Translations under genes and position numbers: made by a program
Origin: Barnesiella sp. An22
Lineage (GTDB): Bacteria; Bacteroidota; Bacteroidia; Bacteroidales; Barnesiellaceae
DNA: 64,000 nucleotides
Direction of reading: 5' to 3'
Assembly: GCF_002159975.1 (NCBI RefSeq)
Contig: NZ_NFJR01000002.1
Span: forward strand, 248,001-312,000
In this document: piece by piece, positions 49,421-60,093 of the stretch
How positions within the stretch are numbered: position 1 is the stretch's first letter
How the letters are laid out: each line of letters opens with the position of its first letter
Notes under the pieces: generated by a model
The model's input: the letters and a program-made list of their open reading frames with translations, nothing else
Database searches by the model: none
Told to the model about the DNA's origin: nothing

Positions 49421-50659
49421 CTACCAGCCCGACGAGGCACCACCGCCGCCGGTGGAGCCTCCACCGAATCCGCCGCCGAAACCGCCTCCACCGAATCCTC
49501 CGCCCCGGCCCGAACCGCCGATGATGGTGGCCGCTGCAACGACGGGGATGATGTAGACTTTGCGGTCTATCTTGTGGCAATGGGCACAGATGTAGCGCTT
49601 CTCGCCCAGTCCGGTGCTTACGGCGGTAGCCCGGCGCAGGATATGGTCGCCTTCGAGGCTGTAGGCCCGGCTGTGGCAGTAGGGGCACCGCTGGTATTGG
49701 GTGAATTGGTTTTCGTAGGGATAGACGAGGGTGTTGCCGCACTGGTCGCAGAGCCACACGTCGTAGTCGACCGAGTTGAGTTGCTCCTCGGTATTCTCCT
49801 GCGGGGTGAGGTAGAGGTTGTCCTCCTCTTCGTTCAGCTTGCGCATGGTGCCGCCGCACGATTCACACTTGCGGGGTTTGTTGCGCAGCCGTTTGAGCCG
49901 GCGGTTCAACCCACCGTAGAGCAGCCACACGAAGAAGGGGAAGATGAAGCTGCCGACAAGCAGGAAGGGGCGGAAGGCCACCAGCCGCTTGTACTGTTCG
50001 TAGGGTCCTTTGCGGGCATAGCGGGCCACTATCCACAGCATGGCGAAGAGCAGGATGTGCGAGACGATGAGCGAGATGGTAATGTAGCCGTTGAATATCT
50101 TTCCCCAGTCGATTTCTATCCCCTGAACCTGGGGAGCTGCCGTAATCTCCTCGGCCGCGGCGGGGTCGGTGAGTATGCGGGAGACGGCCGTGATACCGTC
50201 GATCATGCCCTGGTCGTAGTTGCCCTCCCTGAAGCGAGGCAGGATGTAGCGCGACTGGATGCGCTTGCAGATGGCATCGGGCAGAACCCCCTCCAGCCCG
50301 TAGCCGGTGCGGAAGGTGATGCGCCGCTGGTCGAGCACGAGCAGCACGAGCAGGCCGTTGTCGTTCTTTTTGCCGATGCCCCACTGGGTGAAGAGCTCGG
50401 TGGCAAAGAGGTCGGTATCGGCCTGGCCGATCGACTGCAGGGCCACGACGGCCACCTCGCTGGTGGTGGCCTCTTGCAGGCCGAAGAGCGTGCGGTCGAG
50501 CGTGTCGACGGTCTCGGGCGAGAGTATCCCGTCGGGGTTGCTTACAAACCGCCGGCCGTCGGTCTGGTGCACGTTGGGCACTTGGGCGGGGGTATATTCG
50601 ACTGCCCGCAGCAGGGGGACGAAGAGAAGGAGCAGGAGTATCGTGCAGAATCTTTTCAT
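49421..50659 (-). CDS. TPM-domain protein with zinc ribbons and Gly-rich tail
   Basis: 412 residues. Signal-like N-terminus (MKRFCTILLLLLFVPLLRA), then a TPM domain at about 30-165 (FVSNPDGILSPETVDTLDRTL, VALQSIGQADTDLFATELFTQW, GLLVLLVLDQRRITFRTGYGLEG). Two membrane segments follow (about 190-215 and 230-250), then Cys pairs CESC, CDQC, CPYC and CAHC that can form two zinc ribbons, and a Gly-rich C-terminus. TPM proteins are linked to membrane-protein quality control and phosphatase-like activity. It lies 14 bases after dgt and 53 before the GH20 gene. Confidence 0.87.
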   Translation of the reverse strand: MKRFCTILLLLLFVPLLRAVEYTPAQVPNVHQTDGRRFVSNPDGILSPETVDTLDRTLFGLQEATTSEVAVVALQSIGQADTDLFATELFTQWGIGKKNDNGLLVLLVLDQRRITFRTGYGLEGVLPDAICKRIQSRYILPRFREGNYDQGMIDGITAVSRILTDPAAAEEITAAPQVQGIEIDWGKIFNGYITISLIVSHILLFAMLWIVARYARKGPYEQYKRLVAFRPFLLVGSFIFPFFVWLLYGGLNRRLKRLRNKPRKCESCGGTMRKLNEEEDNLYLTPQENTEEQLNSVDYDVWLCDQCGNTLVYPYENQFTQYQRCPYCHSRAYSLEGDHILRRATAVSTGLGEKRYICAHCHKIDRKVYIIPVVAAATIIGGSGRGGGFGGGGFGGGFGGGSTGGGGASSGW

Positions 50660-50673
50660 GCGTGTATTCGTGT

Positions 50674-52032
50674 TTAAAGCGAGGGGAGGCTCATGCCGTT
50701 GATTTTGCGATAGAGGTCGAGGGCATAGACGTCGGTCATGCCCGATATGTAGTCGATGACCGCCTGTACCTTGCCGTAGAGCGTGGGGGCGTGCATCTCG
50801 TATTGCTCGGGTACCTTGTTGAGCAGCAGGCGCGAATAGGCCTTGTCGGGGAATCGCACGGCATCGAGAAACTTGTCGAGCAGCACCGATATGATGCGGT
50901 TACCGGCCAGCTCGATGTCGAGCACGTCGGACGATTTGTAAATCTTTTCCATCGCCGTGGCGGCGCAGTTGCGGTAGGCCTGGCAGGGACGGTCGGAGAT
51001 GTGGTCGACCAAAGCCCCGGTAAACCGTCCTTCGAGCAACGCCTGCTCTTCGCGGCAGAAGAGGGCCGAGCATTCGTCGATGAGGGTGCCGATGACGCAG
51101 GAGCGCAGGTAGACAATCTGCTCGTTGAGGTCGGTCACCACCTTGAGCACGTCGAGAATGTGCTGTTGCCGCTTCGGGTCGAAGAAGTCGAGGAAGAGCC
51201 TCTTCACCGTTTCGGTGGTGAGAATCTTCAGCTTGTGGGCATCCTCGATGTCCATAATCTGGTAGCAGATGTCGTCGGCCGCCTCGACCAGATAGACCAG
51301 CGGGTGGCGATGGTAACGCTCGCCGCTGTCGCCCTCGGGGAGCATGCCCAGGTCGTTGGCGATGCGCAGGAAATCTTCCTTCTCCGAGGTGAAGAATCCC
51401 GACTTGCCCCGCTTGGTCGACTGGATGGACGAGTAGGGATATTTCACAATCGAGGCAAGAGTCGAGTAGGTGAGGGCAAAGCCGCCGGGACGCCGGCCGT
51501 GGAACTGGTGGGTGAGCAGGCGGAAGGCGTTGGCATTCCCCTCGAAGTGGGTGAAGTCTTGCCAGTGGTGCTCGTTTTTCAACTCCTGTTTCAGCACCTG
51601 CCCGTTCCCCTCGGAGAAGTAGGTGGCAATGGCCCGTTCGCCCGAGTGGCCGAAGGGGGGATTGCCCAGGTCGTGGGCCAGACAAGCCGCCGAGGTGATG
51701 GCCCCCAGGTGGTTGAGCTTGTGGCACCAAGGCTCGCCGCTGTATTTCTCGGAGAGCGTAGACGACACGTTGTTGCCCAGCGAGCGCCCTACGCACGAGA
51801 CTTCGAGGCTGTGGGTGAGCCGGTTGTGCACGAATATGCTGCCCGGCAACGGGAATACCTGAGTCTTGTTCTGCAGGCGACGGAAGGGTGCCGAGAAGAC
51901 CAGGCGGTCGTAGTCGCGCTGAAAGTCGGTGCGGGTGTGGTGCCGCTCGTCGTGGTATTTCTCCATGCCGAAGCGTTTGGAGGTGATGAGGCGGTCCCAG
52001 TGCATTTGGGTGGGGGTATCCTTGGCTTGCAT
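50674..52032 (-). CDS. dgt: Deoxyguanosinetriphosphate triphosphohydrolase (dGTPase)
   Basis: HD-family enzyme that cleaves dGTP (and other dNTPs in relatives) to the nucleoside and tripolyphosphate. The 452 residues contain RLTHSLEVSCVGRSLG, the HD pair in CLAHDLGNPPFGHSGE, and EAADDICYQIMDIEDAH, which give the metal-binding His/Asp set. It is the first of three reverse genes and faces the dut gene head-to-head across 199 bases. Confidence 0.95.
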   Translation of the reverse strand: MQAKDTPTQMHWDRLITSKRFGMEKYHDERHHTRTDFQRDYDRLVFSAPFRRLQNKTQVFPLPGSIFVHNRLTHSLEVSCVGRSLGNNVSSTLSEKYSGEPWCHKLNHLGAITSAACLAHDLGNPPFGHSGERAIATYFSEGNGQVLKQELKNEHHWQDFTHFEGNANAFRLLTHQFHGRRPGGFALTYSTLASIVKYPYSSIQSTKRGKSGFFTSEKEDFLRIANDLGMLPEGDSGERYHRHPLVYLVEAADDICYQIMDIEDAHKLKILTTETVKRLFLDFFDPKRQQHILDVLKVVTDLNEQIVYLRSCVIGTLIDECSALFCREEQALLEGRFTGALVDHISDRPCQAYRNCAATAMEKIYKSSDVLDIELAGNRIISVLLDKFLDAVRFPDKAYSRLLLNKVPEQYEMHAPTLYGKVQAVIDYISGMTDVYALDLYRKINGMSLPSL

Positions 52033-52176: not shown

Positions 52177-52184
52177 TATTTTCG
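52177..52184 (+). promoter_or_regulatory. Possible -7 box for the dut operon
   Basis: TATTTTCG, one base off TAnnTTTG, 48 bases before the dut ATG. Confidence 0.35.
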
Positions 52185-52231: not shown

Positions 52232-52672
52232 ATGAAGGTCTCTGTCAAGATAGTCAACAAGTCGCATCACGCGCTACCCTCGTACAGCACGCTGTTTTCG
52301 GCCGGTATGGATATTCGCGCCAACCTGTCCGAGCCGGTCACCCTGGCTCCCCTCGAGCGCAAGCTCATCCCCACCGGTCTCTATATCGCCCTGCCCGAGG
52401 GGTATGAGGCGCAGATACGGCCGCGCAGCGGGCTGGCGCTGAAGCATGGCATCACCATACCCAACACGCCGGGCACCATCGACGCCGACTATCGGGGCGA
52501 GGTGGGCATCATTGTGCTCAACGTATCGGACAAGCCCTTTACCATTGAGGATGGCGAGCGCATCTGCCAGATGGTGGTGAAGGAGTATTGCCGGGTCGAG
52601 TGGGACGAGGTCGAGTCGCTCGACGAGACCGAGCGCGGAGCCGGTGGATTCGGTCATACGGGTGTGAAATAA
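52232..52672 (+). CDS. dut: dUTP diphosphatase
   Basis: Hydrolyses dUTP to dUMP, keeping uracil out of DNA and feeding dTMP synthesis. The 146 residues carry all five trimeric dUTPase motifs: [40 protein letters not shown] and [10 protein letters not shown]. It opens a forward run of closely spaced genes; the TPR lipoprotein begins 19 bases after it. Confidence 0.97.
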
Positions 52673-52691
52673 AAAGCCTCTGGACGAAGTT

Positions 52692-54446
52692 ATGATGAGG
52701 ATGATGAGCATGCGAAAATATGGAACGATAGCGCTGCTGTGCGTAGCGTGGTGTGTTGCCCTGACCGGTTGTGCCCTGCACAGAAGCGGAGCCGGCGAGG
52801 GTGAACTCTCGGCCGAAGAGCGCCAGAAGTTCGAATACTTTTACCTCGAGGCCGAGCGGCAGAAGGCTCTCGACCACGACGATGCGGCTTTCGACCTGAT
52901 GAGCCGGGCCGCCGAAATCGATACCGCCAGTGCGGCTGCCCGTTTCTTTCTGGCTCCCTACTACCTGCGTCTGGGCCTCTACGACCAGGCTCGCGGCGAC
53001 CTGCGCTATGCCGCCGAGCAACACCCCGAAAACTATTGGTACAACGTGGTTTATGCCAACTTTTCGCAACAGAGCGGACAGCACGACGAGGCGATTCGCA
53101 TCTGGTCGCGGTTGCTCAAACAGAATCCCGACAAGGGTGAGATAAATTCGGCCCTGGCCGAAGCCTATACCGCCAAGGGCGACCTGAAATCGGCTGTAGC
53201 CTGCTACGACAGTCTGGAGTCGTCGATGGGGATAAAGGTCCCCATCACCATCGAGAAGCTGAAGCTCTACGAGCACATGGGCGATATGGATGCGATGGTC
53301 TCCGAGGCCGAGAAACTGCAACGCACCTTTCCCCAGAATACCGACTACATGCGGCTGTTGGGCGACATCTACCTCGAGGCGGGGCGCGACTCGTCGGCCC
53401 TGGCCATGTATGACCGGGCTCTGGAGGTGGAGCCCGAGAATGGCTACGTCTATCTGTCGAAGGCCGGCTATTACGAGAAGAAGGGCGACTCCATCGCCTA
53501 CAACAACGAGATACGGAATGCCTTGATAAACCGTCATATCGACGTGGATACGAAGCTGAACATCTTCAGCACCTACATCGTGGACCTGATGAAGAAGAAG
53601 CAGGAGCTGAATCGGGTCGATTCGCTCTTTGCCGAGATGCTCGAGCAATATCCGCAGGAGGAGCCGGTGCACCGGCTCTTCGGCATGTACCTGTCGAGCC
53701 GCAAGGAGTTTACACGGGCCGAGGAGCAGTATGCCATCGCTACCGACCTGGCCCCCTCCAACCCCGAGAACTGGTTGCAGCTGATCGGGCTGTATCTCTA
53801 TCAGGAGAAGTATGCCGACGTGATACGGGTGGGCAAGCGGGCCATACAGTATGTGCCCGACCAGAAGGATATTTACATGTATGTGGCGGTAGCCAGCACG
53901 CAGACGAAGAGCTATGCCGAGGCGCTCGAGATGCTCGAGACGGGACTCACCTATGTCGACGAGGGCGACAACGGCACGAAGTCGTTCTTCTACGGGCAGA
54001 TGGGCGATGTCTATCACTCGTCGGGCGACCGCGAGAAGGCCTATGCCATGTACGACCTGGCGCTGTCGTACAACGCCTCGAACATACCGGTGCTCAACAA
54101 TTACAGCTATTTCCTGGCCGTCGAAGGGCGCGACCTCGACAAGGCCGAACGGATGAGTGCCCAAACGGTGAAAGCCGAACCCGACAACGCCACCTACCTC
54201 GATACCTATGCGTGGATATTTTTCAAGAAGGGCGACTACTCGCTGGCCCGTCTCTACATGAAGAATGCCATCGACAAGAGCCCCGAACCCAGTGCCGAAC
54301 TGTATGAACACTACGGCGACATACTGGCCATGCTGGGCGAGCTGGACGAGGCGGTGACCTATTGGCAAAAGGCCCTCGACCTGGGGAGCGAGTCGGCCGA
54401 TGTATTGAAAGAGAAAATCGAGCAAAAGAAATATATTGAGAAATGA
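52692..54446 (+). CDS. TPR-repeat lipoprotein
   Basis: 584 residues. Several ATG codons lie within the first 7 positions, so the exact start is uncertain by up to 6 residues. The lipobox LTGC follows a hydrophobic stretch. The rest is about 12-14 TPR-like helix pairs (for example DMDAMVSEAEKLQRTFPQN; DSSALAMYDRALEVEPENGYVYLSKAGY). It is probably tethered to the inner leaflet of the outer membrane. It overlaps the next gene by the four bases ATGA, implying coupled translation with the DUF4292 lipoprotein. Confidence 0.9.
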   Translation: MMRMMSMRKYGTIALLCVAWCVALTGCALHRSGAGEGELSAEERQKFEYFYLEAERQKALDHDDAAFDLMSRAAEIDTASAAARFFLAPYYLRLGLYDQARGDLRYAAEQHPENYWYNVVYANFSQQSGQHDEAIRIWSRLLKQNPDKGEINSALAEAYTAKGDLKSAVACYDSLESSMGIKVPITIEKLKLYEHMGDMDAMVSEAEKLQRTFPQNTDYMRLLGDIYLEAGRDSSALAMYDRALEVEPENGYVYLSKAGYYEKKGDSIAYNNEIRNALINRHIDVDTKLNIFSTYIVDLMKKKQELNRVDSLFAEMLEQYPQEEPVHRLFGMYLSSRKEFTRAEEQYAIATDLAPSNPENWLQLIGLYLYQEKYADVIRVGKRAIQYVPDQKDIYMYVAVASTQTKSYAEALEMLETGLTYVDEGDNGTKSFFYGQMGDVYHSSGDREKAYAMYDLALSYNASNIPVLNNYSYFLAVEGRDLDKAERMSAQTVKAEPDNATYLDTYAWIFFKKGDYSLARLYMKNAIDKSPEPSAELYEHYGDILAMLGELDEAVTYWQKALDLGSESADVLKEKIEQKKYIEK

Positions 54447-55273
54447 AACCTATATACGTAGCGGTCTGTATCGCGTTGCTGTCGATGCTGGCAGGCTGTA
54501 AAGGGGGAAAAGAGCTGGCCACCCACCAGCCGGTGTCGCGAGAGGTGCGTAACAATTTCGAGACCCTCATGGCATCGTATCCCGAGTGGACCACCTTCTC
54601 GGCGAAGGGGTCGGCCGATGTGGGGCTGGGCAAAGGGGGCTCGCTGAGCACGAACACGCAGGTGCGCATGGTGCGCGGTGAGTCGTTGCAGATTTCGGTG
54701 CGAGTCTTTTTGGGTATCGAGGTGGCGCGGCTCTACATGACGCGCGACAGCCTCTTTGTCATCGACAAGATGCAGCGCCGGTACGTAGGCGAGTCGCTGG
54801 CCTCGATAGGGGCGCGGCTCTCGCAGGAGCTCTCGCTGGCCACGGTTCAGGATGCCCTGCTGGGGCGCATCTTCCTGCTGGGCAGTAGCTCGTCGGCCTG
54901 TCACATCGACGACTTCGAGGTCATCGAGTCGGGGTCGTCGCGGTGGTCGTTGCAACCCCGCAGTCAGGATACCCGTTTTGGCTATCGGTTCGACCTGAAC
55001 GGCACGAAGCTGCTTTCGACGCAGTTGAGTTCGGCCGATGGCAGCAAGTCGATTGTGTGCCACTATGCCGACTTTGTCAAGCAGGGGACGAGCGACAACT
55101 TCCCCACCACCATGCAGTTGTCTCTCACGGGGTTGAGTCTGCCGTTGTCGCTCAATTTGGGCTATGACGCCTCGTCGATTGCCTGGAACGGGAAGGTAAG
55201 CATCGAGAAGCTCGACTTGTCGAGGTATACGCGAGTTTCGGCTACGCAGTTGTTAAAGGAGTTGTCGATATGA
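54443..55273 (+). CDS. DUF4292 lipoprotein (LolB-like)
   Basis: 276 residues with lipobox LAGC near residue 19. The mature part matches DUF4292: SAKGSADVGLGKGG...STNTQVRMVRGESLQISVRVFLGIEVARLYMTRDSLFVIDKMQRRYV near the start and further beta-strands to the end. This resembles the half-barrel that LolA/LolB use to hold lipoprotein acyl chains. A role in lipoprotein insertion or lipid binding is inference from fold resemblance. ATGA overlaps on both sides tie it to the TPR and EnvC-like genes. Confidence 0.85.
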   Translation: MKPIYVAVCIALLSMLAGCKGGKELATHQPVSREVRNNFETLMASYPEWTTFSAKGSADVGLGKGGSLSTNTQVRMVRGESLQISVRVFLGIEVARLYMTRDSLFVIDKMQRRYVGESLASIGARLSQELSLATVQDALLGRIFLLGSSSSACHIDDFEVIESGSSRWSLQPRSQDTRFGYRFDLNGTKLLSTQLSSADGSKSIVCHYADFVKQGTSDNFPTTMQLSLTGLSLPLSLNLGYDASSIAWNGKVSIEKLDLSRYTRVSATQLLKELSI

Positions 55274-56511
55274 AAAGGTGGTTAGTCTTATGTTGCATCA
55301 TCGGGTTGGGGGCTTCGACTCTCTTCGCCCAGACCCTCGAGATGGAGAAGCTGCGCCGCAATCGGGAGCAGACGTTGAAGGAGCTGAACGAGACCAACAA
55401 AAAGCTCGACAAGACGCTGCGCAGCGCCAAGAGTTCGCTCAACGAGTTGAACAGCATCACGGCCGAAATCAAGCAGCAACGCAATCTGATTGCCAAAATC
55501 AACAAGGAGATTGCCGTCATCAACCGCAAGCAGCGGGCGGTCAAGGATACCATCTACCTGCTGCAGAAGGATTTGACGGCCAAGAAGCGCAGCTATGCCA
55601 ATGCCGTGAAGCGCATGGGGCACCGGCGGTCGGAGTATGACGAACTGATGTTCATTTTCTCGGCCTCGTCGTTGAGCCAGTCGTATCGGCGGGCCCGCTA
55701 TCTGAAGGAGTATTCGGCCTGGCGCAAGCGGCAGGCCGCCGAAATAGCCGAGCGCAAGCAGCAGCTCGAGGAGTTGCAGAAGGAGCTGGCCAAGAGCATG
55801 GCCGAGAAGAATGCCATACTCAAGGAGCGTAGCGCCGAAGCCAATGTGCTGGAGAAGCAGGAGAGCAGCAAGCGCAACCTGATTGCCGGTCTCAAGAAAC
55901 AGGAGAAACAGCTGAAACGCGAGATAGACCGCAAGCGGAAACAGGCCGAGGCTCTCGACCGCAAGCTCGAACAGCTTATTGCCGAGGAGGAGCGCAAGTC
56001 GTCGGACCGCGCCAACAAGGCCGATGGGCAGACCTCGACTGCCAAGCGTTCGACCAAGGGCTACAAGATGACCAAGGAGGAGCTGGCCCTCTCGGGCAGC
56101 TTCGAGAAGAACAAGGGCAAACTGCCCTTCCCCCTCTCGGGCAGCTACAAGATTGTGGCCCACTTCGGTCGTCAGCAGCACCCCGAACTGCGCTACGTGC
56201 AGACCGAAAACAGCGGTATCGACATCGAGACTACACCGGGTACCAAGGCTCGGGCCGTTTTCAACGGGGTGGTATCGCGCATCTTCGTTACCCCGGGATA
56301 CAACAGTACCATCATCGTGCGGCACGGTAACTACCTGACCATCTACGCCAACCTGAGCGAGGTCTATGTACGGGCCGGCGAGAAGGTGAAGACCGGGCAG
56401 AACCTGGGTAAAATCTATTCCGACTCGCAGGATGGCAACCGCACCATCCTCACCTTCCAGCTCTGGAAAGAGCGTACGAAGCTGAACCCCGAGTCGTGGC
56501 TTAATCTGTAA
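55270..56511 (+). CDS. EnvC-like murein hydrolase activator (degenerate M23)
   Basis: 413 residues. Signal peptide (MKRWLVLCCIIGLGASTLFAQ), then about 230 residues of coiled coil, a Ser/Thr-rich linker, and a C-terminal LytM/M23 fold (about 285-413). The metal ligands expected in active M23 enzymes are lost: NSGIDIETTPGT where HxGxD is normal, YANL where YxHL is expected, and FQLW where a histidine would be. This is the pattern of EnvC-type activators, which stimulate amidases at division sites without cutting peptidoglycan themselves. It overlaps the DUF4292 gene by 4 bases. Confidence 0.9.
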   Translation: MKRWLVLCCIIGLGASTLFAQTLEMEKLRRNREQTLKELNETNKKLDKTLRSAKSSLNELNSITAEIKQQRNLIAKINKEIAVINRKQRAVKDTIYLLQKDLTAKKRSYANAVKRMGHRRSEYDELMFIFSASSLSQSYRRARYLKEYSAWRKRQAAEIAERKQQLEELQKELAKSMAEKNAILKERSAEANVLEKQESSKRNLIAGLKKQEKQLKREIDRKRKQAEALDRKLEQLIAEEERKSSDRANKADGQTSTAKRSTKGYKMTKEELALSGSFEKNKGKLPFPLSGSYKIVAHFGRQQHPELRYVQTENSGIDIETTPGTKARAVFNGVVSRIFVTPGYNSTIIVRHGNYLTIYANLSEVYVRAGEKVKTGQNLGKIYSDSQDGNRTILTFQLWKERTKLNPESWLNL

Positions 56512-56524
56512 AAACGAAAAAGGT

Positions 56525-57463
56525 ATGGGCATGGAGATACACCGGTATACGGCGGCTTATCACCGCGATTGGAACGATTTTGTCAACGAGTCGTCGAACG
56601 GGACCTTCCTGTTTCTGCGGGAGTACATGGAGTATCATGCCGACCGCTTCAGCGACTACTCGCTGCTGGTCTACGACGATAACAGACTGCTGGCCCTGTT
56701 GCCGGCCAACCGCCAGGGCGACGTGCTCTACTCGCACGCCGGCCTCACCTATGGCGGGCTCATCATGACCACCCGCAACACTACGGTGCAGGTGCTCGAA
56801 ATCATGCAGCTCATTGCCGACTTCCTGCGCAAGGAGCGTTTTGTCAAGTGGGTCTACAAATGCGTGCCCCATATCTATCACCGCTATCCGTCGGAGGCCG
56901 ACCTCTACGCCCTCTTCCGGCTCAATGCCCGGTGGGTGGGATGCAACATCTCGTCGACCGTGCAGCAGGATCGTCCGCTGCGCTTCCGGGCCGACCGCCG
57001 CAGCCGCATCAAGAAGGCTGAGCAGGCCGGACTGCAGGTGGTCGAGACGACCGACTTCGCCCCCTTCTGGGCCATTCTGGAGGCCAATCTGCAGGAGCGG
57101 TTCCACGTGAAGCCGGTCCACTCGCTGGCCGAAATCGAATTGCTGCACAGCCGTTTCCCCGACCGCATCCGTCACTTGGTGACGATGCGCGGCAACGAGG
57201 TGCTGGCCGGCAGTGTCATCTACGACACAGGTATCGTGGCACATGCCCAGTACACCTCGGCTTCGCATGAGGGGAAGAGCTCGGGAGCTCTCGACCTGCT
57301 TTATGGGAAAATCATCGGCGAGGTGTTTGCCGACCGCAAGTGGTTCGACTTCGGGCAGTCGACCGAGGATATGGGCCACTACCTCAACGAGGGGCTCATC
57401 ACCCAGAAGGAGGGGTTCGGATGCCGGGCCGTCGCCTATAACATTTACGAGATAATTTTATAA
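56525..57463 (+). CDS. GNAT/FemAB-like N-acyltransferase
   Basis: 312 residues, with weak FemAB/GNAT-like features: FVNESSNGTFLFLREYMEYH at the N-terminus and LDLLYGKIIGEVFADRKWFDFGQST near the C-terminus, typical of GNAT proteins encoded beside surface-polysaccharide genes. I infer an acyl or aminoacyl transfer to a cell-envelope sugar or peptide. The donor and acceptor cannot be fixed. It lies 13 bases after the EnvC-like gene and 6 before the flippase. The ATG two codons in is an alternative start. Confidence 0.8.
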   Translation: MGMEIHRYTAAYHRDWNDFVNESSNGTFLFLREYMEYHADRFSDYSLLVYDDNRLLALLPANRQGDVLYSHAGLTYGGLIMTTRNTTVQVLEIMQLIADFLRKERFVKWVYKCVPHIYHRYPSEADLYALFRLNARWVGCNISSTVQQDRPLRFRADRRSRIKKAEQAGLQVVETTDFAPFWAILEANLQERFHVKPVHSLAEIELLHSRFPDRIRHLVTMRGNEVLAGSVIYDTGIVAHAQYTSASHEGKSSGALDLLYGKIIGEVFADRKWFDFGQSTEDMGHYLNEGLITQKEGFGCRAVAYNIYEIIL

Positions 57464-57469
57464 CCAGCC

Positions 57470-58909
57470 ATGAACAGCGGGGAGGACAAAAAGATATACC
57501 GCACCATCGTGAAGGCTACCGGCCTTTTCGGGGGGACGCAGGTGTTCACCATCCTCTGTTCGATTATCAAGACCAAACTGGTAGCCATCTGGCTGGGTGC
57601 CGAGGGGGTAGGCATCATCGGGTTGTATAGCAACACGGTTGACATGATTTCGGCCCTGACCCGGCTGGGCATCGGCACCAGTTCGGTGCGCGACCTGTCG
57701 AGGGCCTTCAAGTCGGGCGACCGTAACCGGTTTGCCAGCCTGGTGAAGGTGGTGCGCCGCTGGGTGTGGTTCACCGGTCTGCTGGGGGCGGTGCTTATGC
57801 TCACCTTTGCCCCGGTGCTGAGTCGCTACACCTTTGGCGACTCGCAACACATCTGGGGTTTTGTCTTCCTGTCGTGCACGCTGTTGTTTACCGCACTTAC
57901 CGAGGGTGAGCGGGCCATCATTCAGGCCTCGAACCGCCTGCGGGTGCTGGCCCGTTGCTCGGTGCTGGGGTCGGTGCTGGCACTGCTGCTGTCGTTGCCG
58001 TTGTTCTACTTCTACGGCATCTCGGGTATCGTGCCCGCTATTATCGCCCACACCTTTGCCATCGTTCTGGTGACGGTGCTGTTGGGCCGTCGCATGAAAA
58101 TCGAGCCGGTTTCGATTGACTGGCGCGAGACTTATCGGCAGGGGCGGGGCATCGCCGCACTGGGCATCTACATGACGGTGAGCGGCTTCATCACCACGCT
58201 CTACTCCTATCTGTTCGTGGCCTGGCTCAACAGCCACAGCGGCACCGGCGAGGTGGGGTACTACCAGGCCGGTTACACGCTGGTGATGCAATATGTGGGG
58301 CTGGTCTTCACGGCCATGTCGATGGAGTATTACCCCCGGCTTTCGGTCGTTTGCGAAGACCGGGCTCTGCTCTCGGAGCATGTGTCGCGGCAGGTCGAGA
58401 CCTCGCTGCTGATACTGGTGCCCTTCATCTCGCTCTTTATCGTTTTGCAAACGCTGATTATACATATATTATATACGGCCGATTTCCTGGCAATCGGGGG
58501 GTACATCTCGTGGGCGGCCCTGGGCATGCTGTTCCGCGCCTTCTCGTGGAGCGTCAGTTTTGTGCTGCTGGCCAAGGGGGCAGGTCGCCTCTACCTCATT
58601 ACCGAAGTGCTGGCCGACTCGCTGATGTTCGTTCTCTACCTGTTGGGATATACCCGGTGGGGACTGGCCGGGGTGGGGGTAGCCTATCTGCTGGCCTATC
58701 TCTGTTCGGGGACGGGCATCTATCTGCTGTGCCGTATCAAGTACGGGTTGCGCGTGCCCCTGCGGGTATTCGGGCTGTTGGGGCTGAGTGTGGCCGGGTG
58801 TGCCGTCGTGCTGCTTTTGTGGCAGGGCGGTCAGGTGATCGGTGCCTGGGTAGCCACGGCGATGTGGGTGCTTCTGGCCGGCTGGCAGTTGAAACGGAGG
58901 CTGTTGTAG
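57470..58909 (+). CDS. Wzx-type oligosaccharide flippase
   Basis: 479 residues with about 12-14 membrane segments. It begins with TGLFGGTQVFTILCSIIKTKLVAIWLG, characteristic of O-antigen translocases, and has the GVGIIGLYSNTVDMISALTRLGIGTSSVRDLSRA segment common in Bacteroidota Wzx proteins. It would flip lipid-linked sugar units to the periplasmic side. With the GNAT protein upstream and the glycosyltransferase 74 bases downstream it forms a small surface-glycan module. Confidence 0.9.
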   Translation: MNSGEDKKIYRTIVKATGLFGGTQVFTILCSIIKTKLVAIWLGAEGVGIIGLYSNTVDMISALTRLGIGTSSVRDLSRAFKSGDRNRFASLVKVVRRWVWFTGLLGAVLMLTFAPVLSRYTFGDSQHIWGFVFLSCTLLFTALTEGERAIIQASNRLRVLARCSVLGSVLALLLSLPLFYFYGISGIVPAIIAHTFAIVLVTVLLGRRMKIEPVSIDWRETYRQGRGIAALGIYMTVSGFITTLYSYLFVAWLNSHSGTGEVGYYQAGYTLVMQYVGLVFTAMSMEYYPRLSVVCEDRALLSEHVSRQVETSLLILVPFISLFIVLQTLIIHILYTADFLAIGGYISWAALGMLFRAFSWSVSFVLLAKGAGRLYLITEVLADSLMFVLYLLGYTRWGLAGVGVAYLLAYLCSGTGIYLLCRIKYGLRVPLRVFGLLGLSVAGCAVVLLLWQGGQVIGAWVATAMWVLLAGWQLKRRLL

Positions 58910-58983
58910 GTGCCATGCAATAAAGCGGGGCGAACAGGCGTTTTTCAAGTAAGAAGATAGTATTTCGAGGAGGGTATGAAAGC

Positions 58984-60093
58984 ATGAAGATATTGTTGGC
59001 AGGCGATTACAGCAATTACCACCGGGCCCTGTCGCTGGCGTTGCGGCGCATGGGGCACGAAGTGACGGTGGCCTCCGACGGGTCGCGTTGGATGAATACG
59101 GCCCGCGACATCGACACCTCGCGTCCGTTCAGGAACAAGGTGGGCGGGCTGTTGTTGTGGGTCAAACTGAATACCCTGCTGCGGTCGCGGTTGGAGGGGT
59201 ATGACATCGTACAAATCAATTCCCCCGGATTCGCCTCCTTGCAGCCTTGCCGGCTACGCCAGCTCTTCGACCGCCTGCTTGCCAGGAACGGGGCGGTTTA
59301 TCTCACCGCCATGGGCACCGATACCTACTACATCGACTTTTGTCTGTCGGGCGCGTTGCGGTATACCGAGTGGCAGATAGGCGACCGGCCCTCGCCGCTT
59401 GCCTTGGCCCAGCCCGACGAGCTCCGGCGCTGGCAAGCTCCGGCACTGACCGACTATACCCGCTATGTGTATGAGCATGTGTGGGGGGTGGTGAGTGCCC
59501 TGTATGAATACAACGAGTCGTGCCGCCGGGTGGTCGACCCCTCACGGTTGGCCTATGCCGGCATCCCCATCGATACCGATTCGTTCACGATGGCCCACGG
59601 CGACGAGATTCCCTCGCGGGTAAAGCTCTTTCTGGGGGTACACCGCGACCGCATGGTCGAGAAGGGTACCGACCGCATGTGGGCTGCCGCCCGAAGGGTG
59701 GCCGAGCGTCACCCCGACAAGTGCGAACTGGTCTTTGTCGAGAACCGTCCCTATCGCGAATATGTAGAGCTGATGCGGTCGTCGCATGTGGTGCTCGACC
59801 AGCTGTACAGCTACACGCCGGCTACTAACGCGCTGCTGGCGATGGCCCAGGGGCTGGTGGTGGTGAGCGGGGCCGAGCCCGAATATTACGATTTTATCGG
59901 GGAGAAGGAGAACCACCCGATTGTCAATGCCATCCCCGACGACGAAAAGCTGGAGGCACAGCTCGAGGAGCTGGTGCTTCACCCCGAGCGTCTGCCCGAG
60001 CAGGCGCGTCGCAGCCGCGAGTTTGTGGTGAAACACAATCGCGACGAGGTGGTAGCCCGGCGTTTTCTCGACTTTTGGGCCCGATGCCGATAG
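58984..60093 (+). CDS. GT4-like glycosyltransferase
   Basis: 369 residues with a GT-B layout. The N-terminus MKILLAGDYSNYHRALSLALRRMGHEV is the acceptor-domain start. The C-terminal half has GIPIDTDSF and later SYTPATNALLAMAQGLVVVSGAEPEYYD, corresponding to the GT4 donor-site region, but the usual EX7E spacing is not clean. It is probably a transferase acting on lipid-linked sugars, given the flippase before it. It ends 22 bases short of the convergent GT2 gene. Confidence 0.78.
   Translation: MKILLAGDYSNYHRALSLALRRMGHEVTVASDGSRWMNTARDIDTSRPFRNKVGGLLLWVKLNTLLRSRLEGYDIVQINSPGFASLQPCRLRQLFDRLLARNGAVYLTAMGTDTYYIDFCLSGALRYTEWQIGDRPSPLALAQPDELRRWQAPALTDYTRYVYEHVWGVVSALYEYNESCRRVVDPSRLAYAGIPIDTDSFTMAHGDEIPSRVKLFLGVHRDRMVEKGTDRMWAAARRVAERHPDKCELVFVENRPYREYVELMRSSHVVLDQLYSYTPATNALLAMAQGLVVVSGAEPEYYDFIGEKENHPIVNAIPDDEKLEAQLEELVLHPERLPEQARRSREFVVKHNRDEVVARRFLDFWARCR

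Follow-up and report, generated by a model that had tools for sequence, protein, structure and literature searches.

The DUF4292 gene of Barnesiella sp. An22 as lolB1 within a conserved TPR–LolB1–EnvC envelope gene cluster of Bacteroidota

The DUF4292 gene of Barnesiella sp. An22 was investigated together with its neighbors in a stretch of 64,000 nucleotides (NCBI RefSeq assembly GCF_002159975.1, contig NZ_NFJR01000002.1, positions 248,001 to 312,000), referred to below as the window. It is the third of seven open reading frames (ORFs), all on the + strand and spaced in the window's ORF list by 19, -4, -4, 13, 6, and 74 bases; these spacings are those given in the original prediction, and the Pfam names agree. 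The gene (54443..55273, +) encodes 276 amino acids with an LAGC lipobox at Cys19, and its NF053559 and PF14125 matches and its fold predict an outer-membrane lipoprotein receptor/insertase. Upstream lies the gene for a tetratricopeptide repeat (TPR) superhelix protein of 584 amino acids (52692..54446, +; Pfam TPR families), which carries the lipobox LTGC and is a probable periplasmic scaffold, and downstream that for an EnvC-like coiled-coil/degenerate LytM protein of 413 amino acids (55270..56511, +; Peptidase_M23 and EnvC profile matches), a predicted amidase activator and not a peptidase. The -4 overlap of the TPR and DUF4292 genes is retained in 8 of 8 congeneric loci. The host genome comprises 3.35 Mb in 56 contigs and is 99.68% complete. 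The best explanation, to which we assign a probability of about 0.8, is that the DUF4292 gene is lolB1 and lies within a conserved TPR–LolB1–EnvC envelope cluster.

The LolB identity of the DUF4292 protein is well supported. It scored 117.3 bits against the NCBIfam LolB1 model NF053559 (release 20; cut-off 50) and 112.9 bits against PF14125 (cut-off 23), the latter being its sole Pfam match at E ≤ 0.1, with no match to PF03550, the proteobacterial LolB. By phmmer it matched 9tpm, the crystal structure of Porphyromonas gingivalis LolB (LolB-PG), at E 5.5e-08. The lipobox Cys19, whose lipidation is predicted, was invariant in the 48 aligned sequences. Arg78, the apparent counterpart of the inward Arg64 of LolB-PG by a hand count on the phmmer alignment with an assumed 14-residue offset, was R or K in 42 of 48. 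The predicted loop between strands 3 and 4 is the counterpart of the LolB insertion loop; 47 of the 48 sequences have at least two hydrophobic residues in it, and 34 have a Leu somewhere. In the window it reads VFLGI (residues 88-92, with Leu90; codons at 54704..54718, +) between the predicted strands 81-88 and 92-99 of the structural model. The reading frame varies in length, being about 189-196 amino acids in Bacteroides fragilis (L189:11226-11813) and the Bacteroides-like loci L159, L188, and L192, compared with 276 in the window, with L159 lacking much of the later part in the alignment.

An AlphaFold2 model (pLDDT 89.6) was computed with the window protein and 47 relatives as input. Foldseek ranked 9tpm first (E 5.7e-15), and VIA-align superimposed the model on 9tpm with Z 23.4, rmsd 3.1, 231 residues aligned, and 18% identity, and on Escherichia coli LolB (1iwm) with Z 14.7, rmsd 2.9, 162 aligned, and 12% identity. 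The other VIA-align rows were 3bk5 (Z 15.7), DUF1329 (4z48, 15.0), LolA3 of P. gingivalis (14.3), LolA (≤12.8), and RseB (7.3), and ependymin-related proteins were likewise among the matches. Since 9tpm stands far above and the lower rows lie close together, the model points specifically to Bacteroidota LolB and, more widely, to the LolA/LolB superfamily. The structural comparison with LolB that the original prediction had proposed came out in agreement at the level of the fold, both for the resemblance to a LolA/LolB shell and, together with the NF053559 match, for a LolB-like part in lipoprotein transport, an inference already published.

In the window genome, PF14125 had a single match, and PF03550 had none at E ≤ 10; by this search no classical LolB was found elsewhere in the genome, the case that had been named as refuting this assignment. 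LolA (PF03548) had one match over the cut-off (37.3 versus 23.6 bits) and one more below it; the LolA gene lies between two frames that we take, from their sequences, to be FtsK-like and thioredoxin-reductase-like. DUF4292 was found in 193 of 198 phylum-draw, 125 of 148 order-draw, and 9 of 9 family genomes, each count including the window's own genome.

LolB1 was demonstrated in Flavobacterium johnsoniae in 2025, in a report whose text describes transport of gliding and type IX secretion lipoproteins and homologues in every Bacteroidota species analysed there (PMC11885536). For P. gingivalis, the 2026 report gives the crystal structure 9TPM, with a cleft of 1790 cubic angstrom, and LolA binding of LolB-PG (PMC13103446). 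The LolB role of DUF4292 is therefore already known from these two reports and the NCBIfam LolB1 model. Neither main text mentions EnvC or TPR. The term 'DUF4292' did not occur in the openly licensed papers searched, and no description of the TPR–LolB1–EnvC trio was found there among titles and abstract starts. Our own contribution is small and consists of the conservation of TPR–LolB1–EnvC as a cluster and of the finding that its two outer genes can remain together where LolB1 is absent.

Conservation of the cluster was examined at 80 DUF4292 loci, namely those of all 8 other family members (the genus loci), every third of the 122 other listed order rows (41 loci), and 31 class/phylum loci hand-picked from the listed rows so as to take roughly one per family, with unlisted weak matches outside the sample. 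A TPR gene was sought ≤300 bases upstream and an EnvC-like gene ≤300 bases downstream. The neighbor profiles were iterated on the same loci, which makes the TPR and M23 family calls broad, and the argument rests on position. Both genes flanked DUF4292 at 8/8 genus, 38/41 order, and 24/31 class/phylum loci (70/80 in total). The other neighbors served as an internal control: dut was found ≤3.6 kb upstream at 8/8, 31/41, and 6/31 loci, respectively, FemAB ≤1.4 kb downstream at 8/8, 1/41, and 0/31, and Wzx ≤3 kb downstream at 8/8, 2/41, and 0/31; at L085 and L116, FemAB lay further away. TPR–LolB1–EnvC is an old, widely conserved Bacteroidota core cluster. Linkage of dut to it is largely an order-level feature, and that of FemAB and Wzx is almost confined to the genus.

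We found a similar picture in 80 named genomes retrieved through their dut genes, a set from which the window's own genome and close ones may be missing. DUF4292 was matched in 62 of them, with a TPR gene upstream in 62/62 and an EnvC-like gene as well in 57/62. Two of the five loci without EnvC end at a contig edge (L174 and L222), and three show none (L162, L167, and L173). The full set was present in B. fragilis (L189); in the stretch from Porphyromonas canoris (L168), dut alone was found. At L182 and L228, dut and the TPR gene are separated by what we take to be a sugar-nucleotidyltransferase-like gene.

No Pfam DUF4292 match was found in 28 sampled genomes (23 order, 5 phylum), of which the 25 listed ones were tested further. 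A wider DUF4292 profile recovered 5 of the 25, and the remaining 20 all had some EnvC-profile match. The TPR gene directly adjoined the EnvC-like gene in 7 of the 20 (G281, G304, G300, G205, G235, G270, and G312), with a largest gap of 52 bases, so the two look like the steadier partners; judged by these profiles, TPR and EnvC can stay paired after LolB1 is lost. A diverged DUF4292 gene lay between TPR and EnvC after all in G254 and G191. The EnvC match was at a contig end in 3/20 (G241, G203, and G249), no TPR gene was seen upstream of it in 3/20 (G230, G217, and G144), and only short M23 matches were present in 4/20 (G208, G211, G227, and G237). LolA was present in four of the seven genomes with adjoining TPR and EnvC (G281, G304, G235, and G270) and was not found in the other three, so co-loss of LolA with LolB1, which was also considered, gives a mixed picture. 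The last of the 20 is G331, where a 165-amino acid frame with a lipoprotein-like start (L267:1002-1499) and no profile similarity to LolB1 lies between TPR and EnvC.

The family profile of the EnvC-like protein matched 8hd0_E with E 1.8e-44 over profile positions 29-422 of 422, and 6tpi_A was also matched. At the positions that we take to be the LytM zinc motifs, the first zinc-ligand His was replaced in 52 of 52 sequences (Asn in 49, Ser in 3). The first position of HxH was His in 0/52, the second His was retained in 32/52 and is replaced by Thr in the window protein, and the motif-1 Asp was retained in 31/52, the window included. Having lost zinc ligands, the protein is expected to activate an amidase rather than to act as an enzyme itself, and the window genome has an FtsX_ECD match and four Amidase_3 genes. 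The downstream EnvC-like activator of the original prediction is borne out by the full-length profile match and the apparent loss of zinc ligands, the activation itself being predicted.

The model of the TPR protein (pLDDT 94.6) consisted of all-helical repeats forming a long TPR superhelix, with conserved residues at 464-508; the next match to the protein elsewhere in the genome reached only 32 bits. Structural comparison gave LbcA (7rqf) Z 19.0 with rmsd 15.6 over 396 aligned residues and O-GlcNAc transferase (OGT; 1w3b) Z 29.0, and the TPR profile matched LbcA at E 8.5e-38. These matches are generic and do not support a proven LbcA homologue. The TPR product had also been called a lipoprotein, which holds for the window protein with its LTGC lipobox; no lipobox was seen in many homologues, and as a family trait the label was rejected, with a simple lipobox pattern in 24 of 52 sequences, a count that is rough both ways because it takes in weak patterns, misses others (L222 and L214), and includes some mis-called starts. 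Neither the window TPR protein nor LolB1 carries C-X-K-(D/E)2, described as a surface-export signal in PMC5080379, which is consistent with both facing the periplasm. NlpI (PMC7049810) and LbcA (PMC12569750) are reported to take part in wall-hydrolase control, and since they do, it is reasonable, though unproven, to read the TPR protein by analogy as scaffolding EnvC or its amidase.

The remaining genes of the run begin with dut (52232..52672, +), which encodes a dUTP diphosphatase of 146 amino acids (NF001862, 202.2 bits, cut-off 103; PF00692). Downstream of the EnvC-like gene follow two local additions, a gene for a FemAB/GNAT-like acyltransferase (56525..57463, +; PF13480, Acetyltransf_6) and one for a Wzx-like oligosaccharide flippase (57470..58909, +; PF13440, Polysacc_synt_3, and PF01943). 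After the 74-base gap comes a gene for a GT4-like glycosyltransferase (58984..60093, +), which matches PF13524 just above the cut-off (26.8 versus 25 bits) and is probably outside the transcript. From dut to Wzx, order and strand were the same in 8 of 8 congeners; the GT4 gene ran the other way in four of the eight (L072, L074, L076, and L077), which makes a shared transcript unlikely for it. A Sigma-70 scan gave 5 sites versus 2.8 expected, none of them falling in the gap before dut or in the 74-base one, with a consensus that is not the Bacteroidota one. There was one near match, at 52177, to an element whose consensus we take to be TAnnTTTG.

Side observations were made around the run. The GT4-like gene (58984-60093) holds its position yet flips strand among the congener loci L072-L079, one of which, L079, carries an additional GT2-like gene between Wzx and GT4; the Wzx–GT4 region looks like a local glycan-gene exchange point. 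On the other side, an HD-domain, dGTPase-like gene (50674-52032, -) diverges from dut (52232-52672, +) across a 199-base gap, the pair probably handling deoxynucleoside triphosphates (dNTPs). The HD-domain gene was present in 8/8 congeners, and 27 of the 80 named loci had an HD-domain match ≤600 bases upstream of dut, divergent in 22 of these. An ARAGORN tRNA-Val call (49832-49923, +) lies inside an opposite-strand TPM-domain gene and is probably false.

Several explanations compete with these assignments. If the DUF4292 protein were another LolA/RseB-like shell member, such as a lipid or lipoprotein sensor that is no insertase, one could point to 3bk5, DUF1329, and LolA3 ranking with or above E. 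coli LolB and to the matches with LolA, ependymin-related proteins, and RseB. We consider this improbable: 9tpm, far above the rest, is a LolB with experimental LolA binding (PMC13103446), the protein passes the LolB1 cut-off with its lipobox Cys in every aligned sequence, and LolB1 of F. johnsoniae is reported to transport gliding and type IX secretion lipoproteins (PMC11885536). We likewise doubt strongly that the seven genes form one functional operon joining dNTP sanitation, lipoprotein insertion, division, and surface glycan export. The short spacings in the window and the constant order and strand from dut to Wzx in congeners speak for it; against it, class/phylum linkage is 6/31 for dut versus 24/31 for TPR plus EnvC, FemAB and Wzx are nearly absent from the order loci and missing, within the distances used, from the class/phylum loci, and GT4 is inverted in half of the congeners. 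With the flanking genes decaying with distance and GT4 flipping strand, such a unit is not favored; of the run proposed in the original prediction, TPR–LolB1–EnvC stands as an old cluster, dut belongs to it mainly at the order level, and the glycan genes are local and not firmly fixed in position. We regard dut, FemAB, Wzx, and GT4 as neighbors kept in narrower lineages, with no demonstrated functional tie.

The cluster could also be a housekeeping neighborhood maintained by inheritance and translational coupling, with TPR, LolB1, and EnvC functionally untied, which would compete with a functional module and leave the LolB identity untouched. Conserved neighbors need not interact, and for lolB1 effects on gliding and secretion are reported in a main text from which EnvC and TPR are absent (PMC11885536). 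TPR and EnvC nevertheless hold while the other neighbors decay with distance, and they stay together in 7 of the 20 genomes in which DUF4292 was not found; we give this explanation somewhat less than even odds.

For the preferred reading, lolB1 within a conserved envelope cluster, the following mechanism is proposed. LolB1 would be a lipid-anchored LolB-fold protein of the outer membrane that accepts lipoproteins handed over by LolA in the periplasm and carries out their insertion into that membrane, a LolA-to-LolB1 transfer that we infer for this organism. The upstream TPR protein may be a long periplasmic repeat scaffold for EnvC or an amidase, a partnership suggested by gene order, and the EnvC-like protein is predicted to be an FtsEX-dependent amidase activator without catalytic residues. 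The cluster genes may be co-transcribed, and lipoprotein delivery may be coupled to septal wall splitting. Taken further, and only tentatively, since we hold it to be on the unlikely side, TPR–LolB1–EnvC could be a Bacteroidota-wide outer-membrane constriction module, in which an NlpI/LbcA-like TPR scaffold would hold or control the EnvC-like activator, the pair being kept where LolB1 is lost, and LolB1 would be made alongside them, so that the insertion of lipoproteins stays in time with the splitting of the septal wall.

A number of observations weigh against the preferred reading or parts of it. Below 9tpm, the 3bk5, DUF1329, E. coli LolB, and LolA3 rows are nearly tied, so the fold singles out no LolB there, and Leu occupies the exact loop column of Leu90 in only 19 of 48 sequences. 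According to PMC11885536, some lipoproteins of F. johnsoniae arrive at the outer membrane independently of LolA and LolB, and according to PMC13103446, deletion of P. gingivalis LolB left growth and type-V fimbriae unaffected; a limited LolB role is possible on these grounds. The complete cluster was missing at 10 of the 80 loci, of which two have EnvC alone and two (L087 and L115) are near contig ends or on short contigs. The EnvC-like protein reached 64.5 bits against the NCBIfam EnvC equivalog NF008644, below the cut-off of 270, and is called EnvC-like for that reason. The TPR fold is generic, with OGT and consensus TPRs scoring better than LbcA in structure and profile comparisons, and gene order alone shows no partnership.

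DUF4292 is confirmed as Bacteroidota LolB in this lineage too, and the annotation can be updated. The conserved TPR and amidase-activator neighbors might be a lead on how outer-membrane building and cell division are coupled in the phylum.

Compared with known systems, the window protein resembles LolB1 of F. johnsoniae (Fjoh_1066) in its NF053559 score, lipobox, and LolB fold and differs in that the window lolB1 is linked to dut; the window comes from what we take to be another order-level lineage of Bacteroidota. LolB-PG (PGN_0994, 9TPM) is its best structural match, with Arg64 apparently corresponding to Arg78, whereas the tip residue Leu90 lies one column off Leu77 of LolB-PG in the phmmer alignment. 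E. coli LolB (1IWM, PF03550) shares the fold but has 12% identity, belongs to a family not matched in the genome, and is no clearly closer than the DUF1329 and LolA3 folds. The EnvC-like protein has the full-length coiled coil plus LytM architecture and degenerate zinc site of EnvC (8HD0, 6TPI), but it scores under the equivalog cut-off and is encoded beside LolB1 and the TPR protein. Like NlpI of E. coli and LbcA of Pseudomonas aeruginosa, TPR lipoproteins that act as scaffolds in the control of wall hydrolases, the TPR protein is an envelope TPR protein with a probable link to wall hydrolysis, and LbcA is among its structural matches; it differs in that the resemblance is a generic TPR one, many homologues have no lipobox, and the cluster contains no protease gene.

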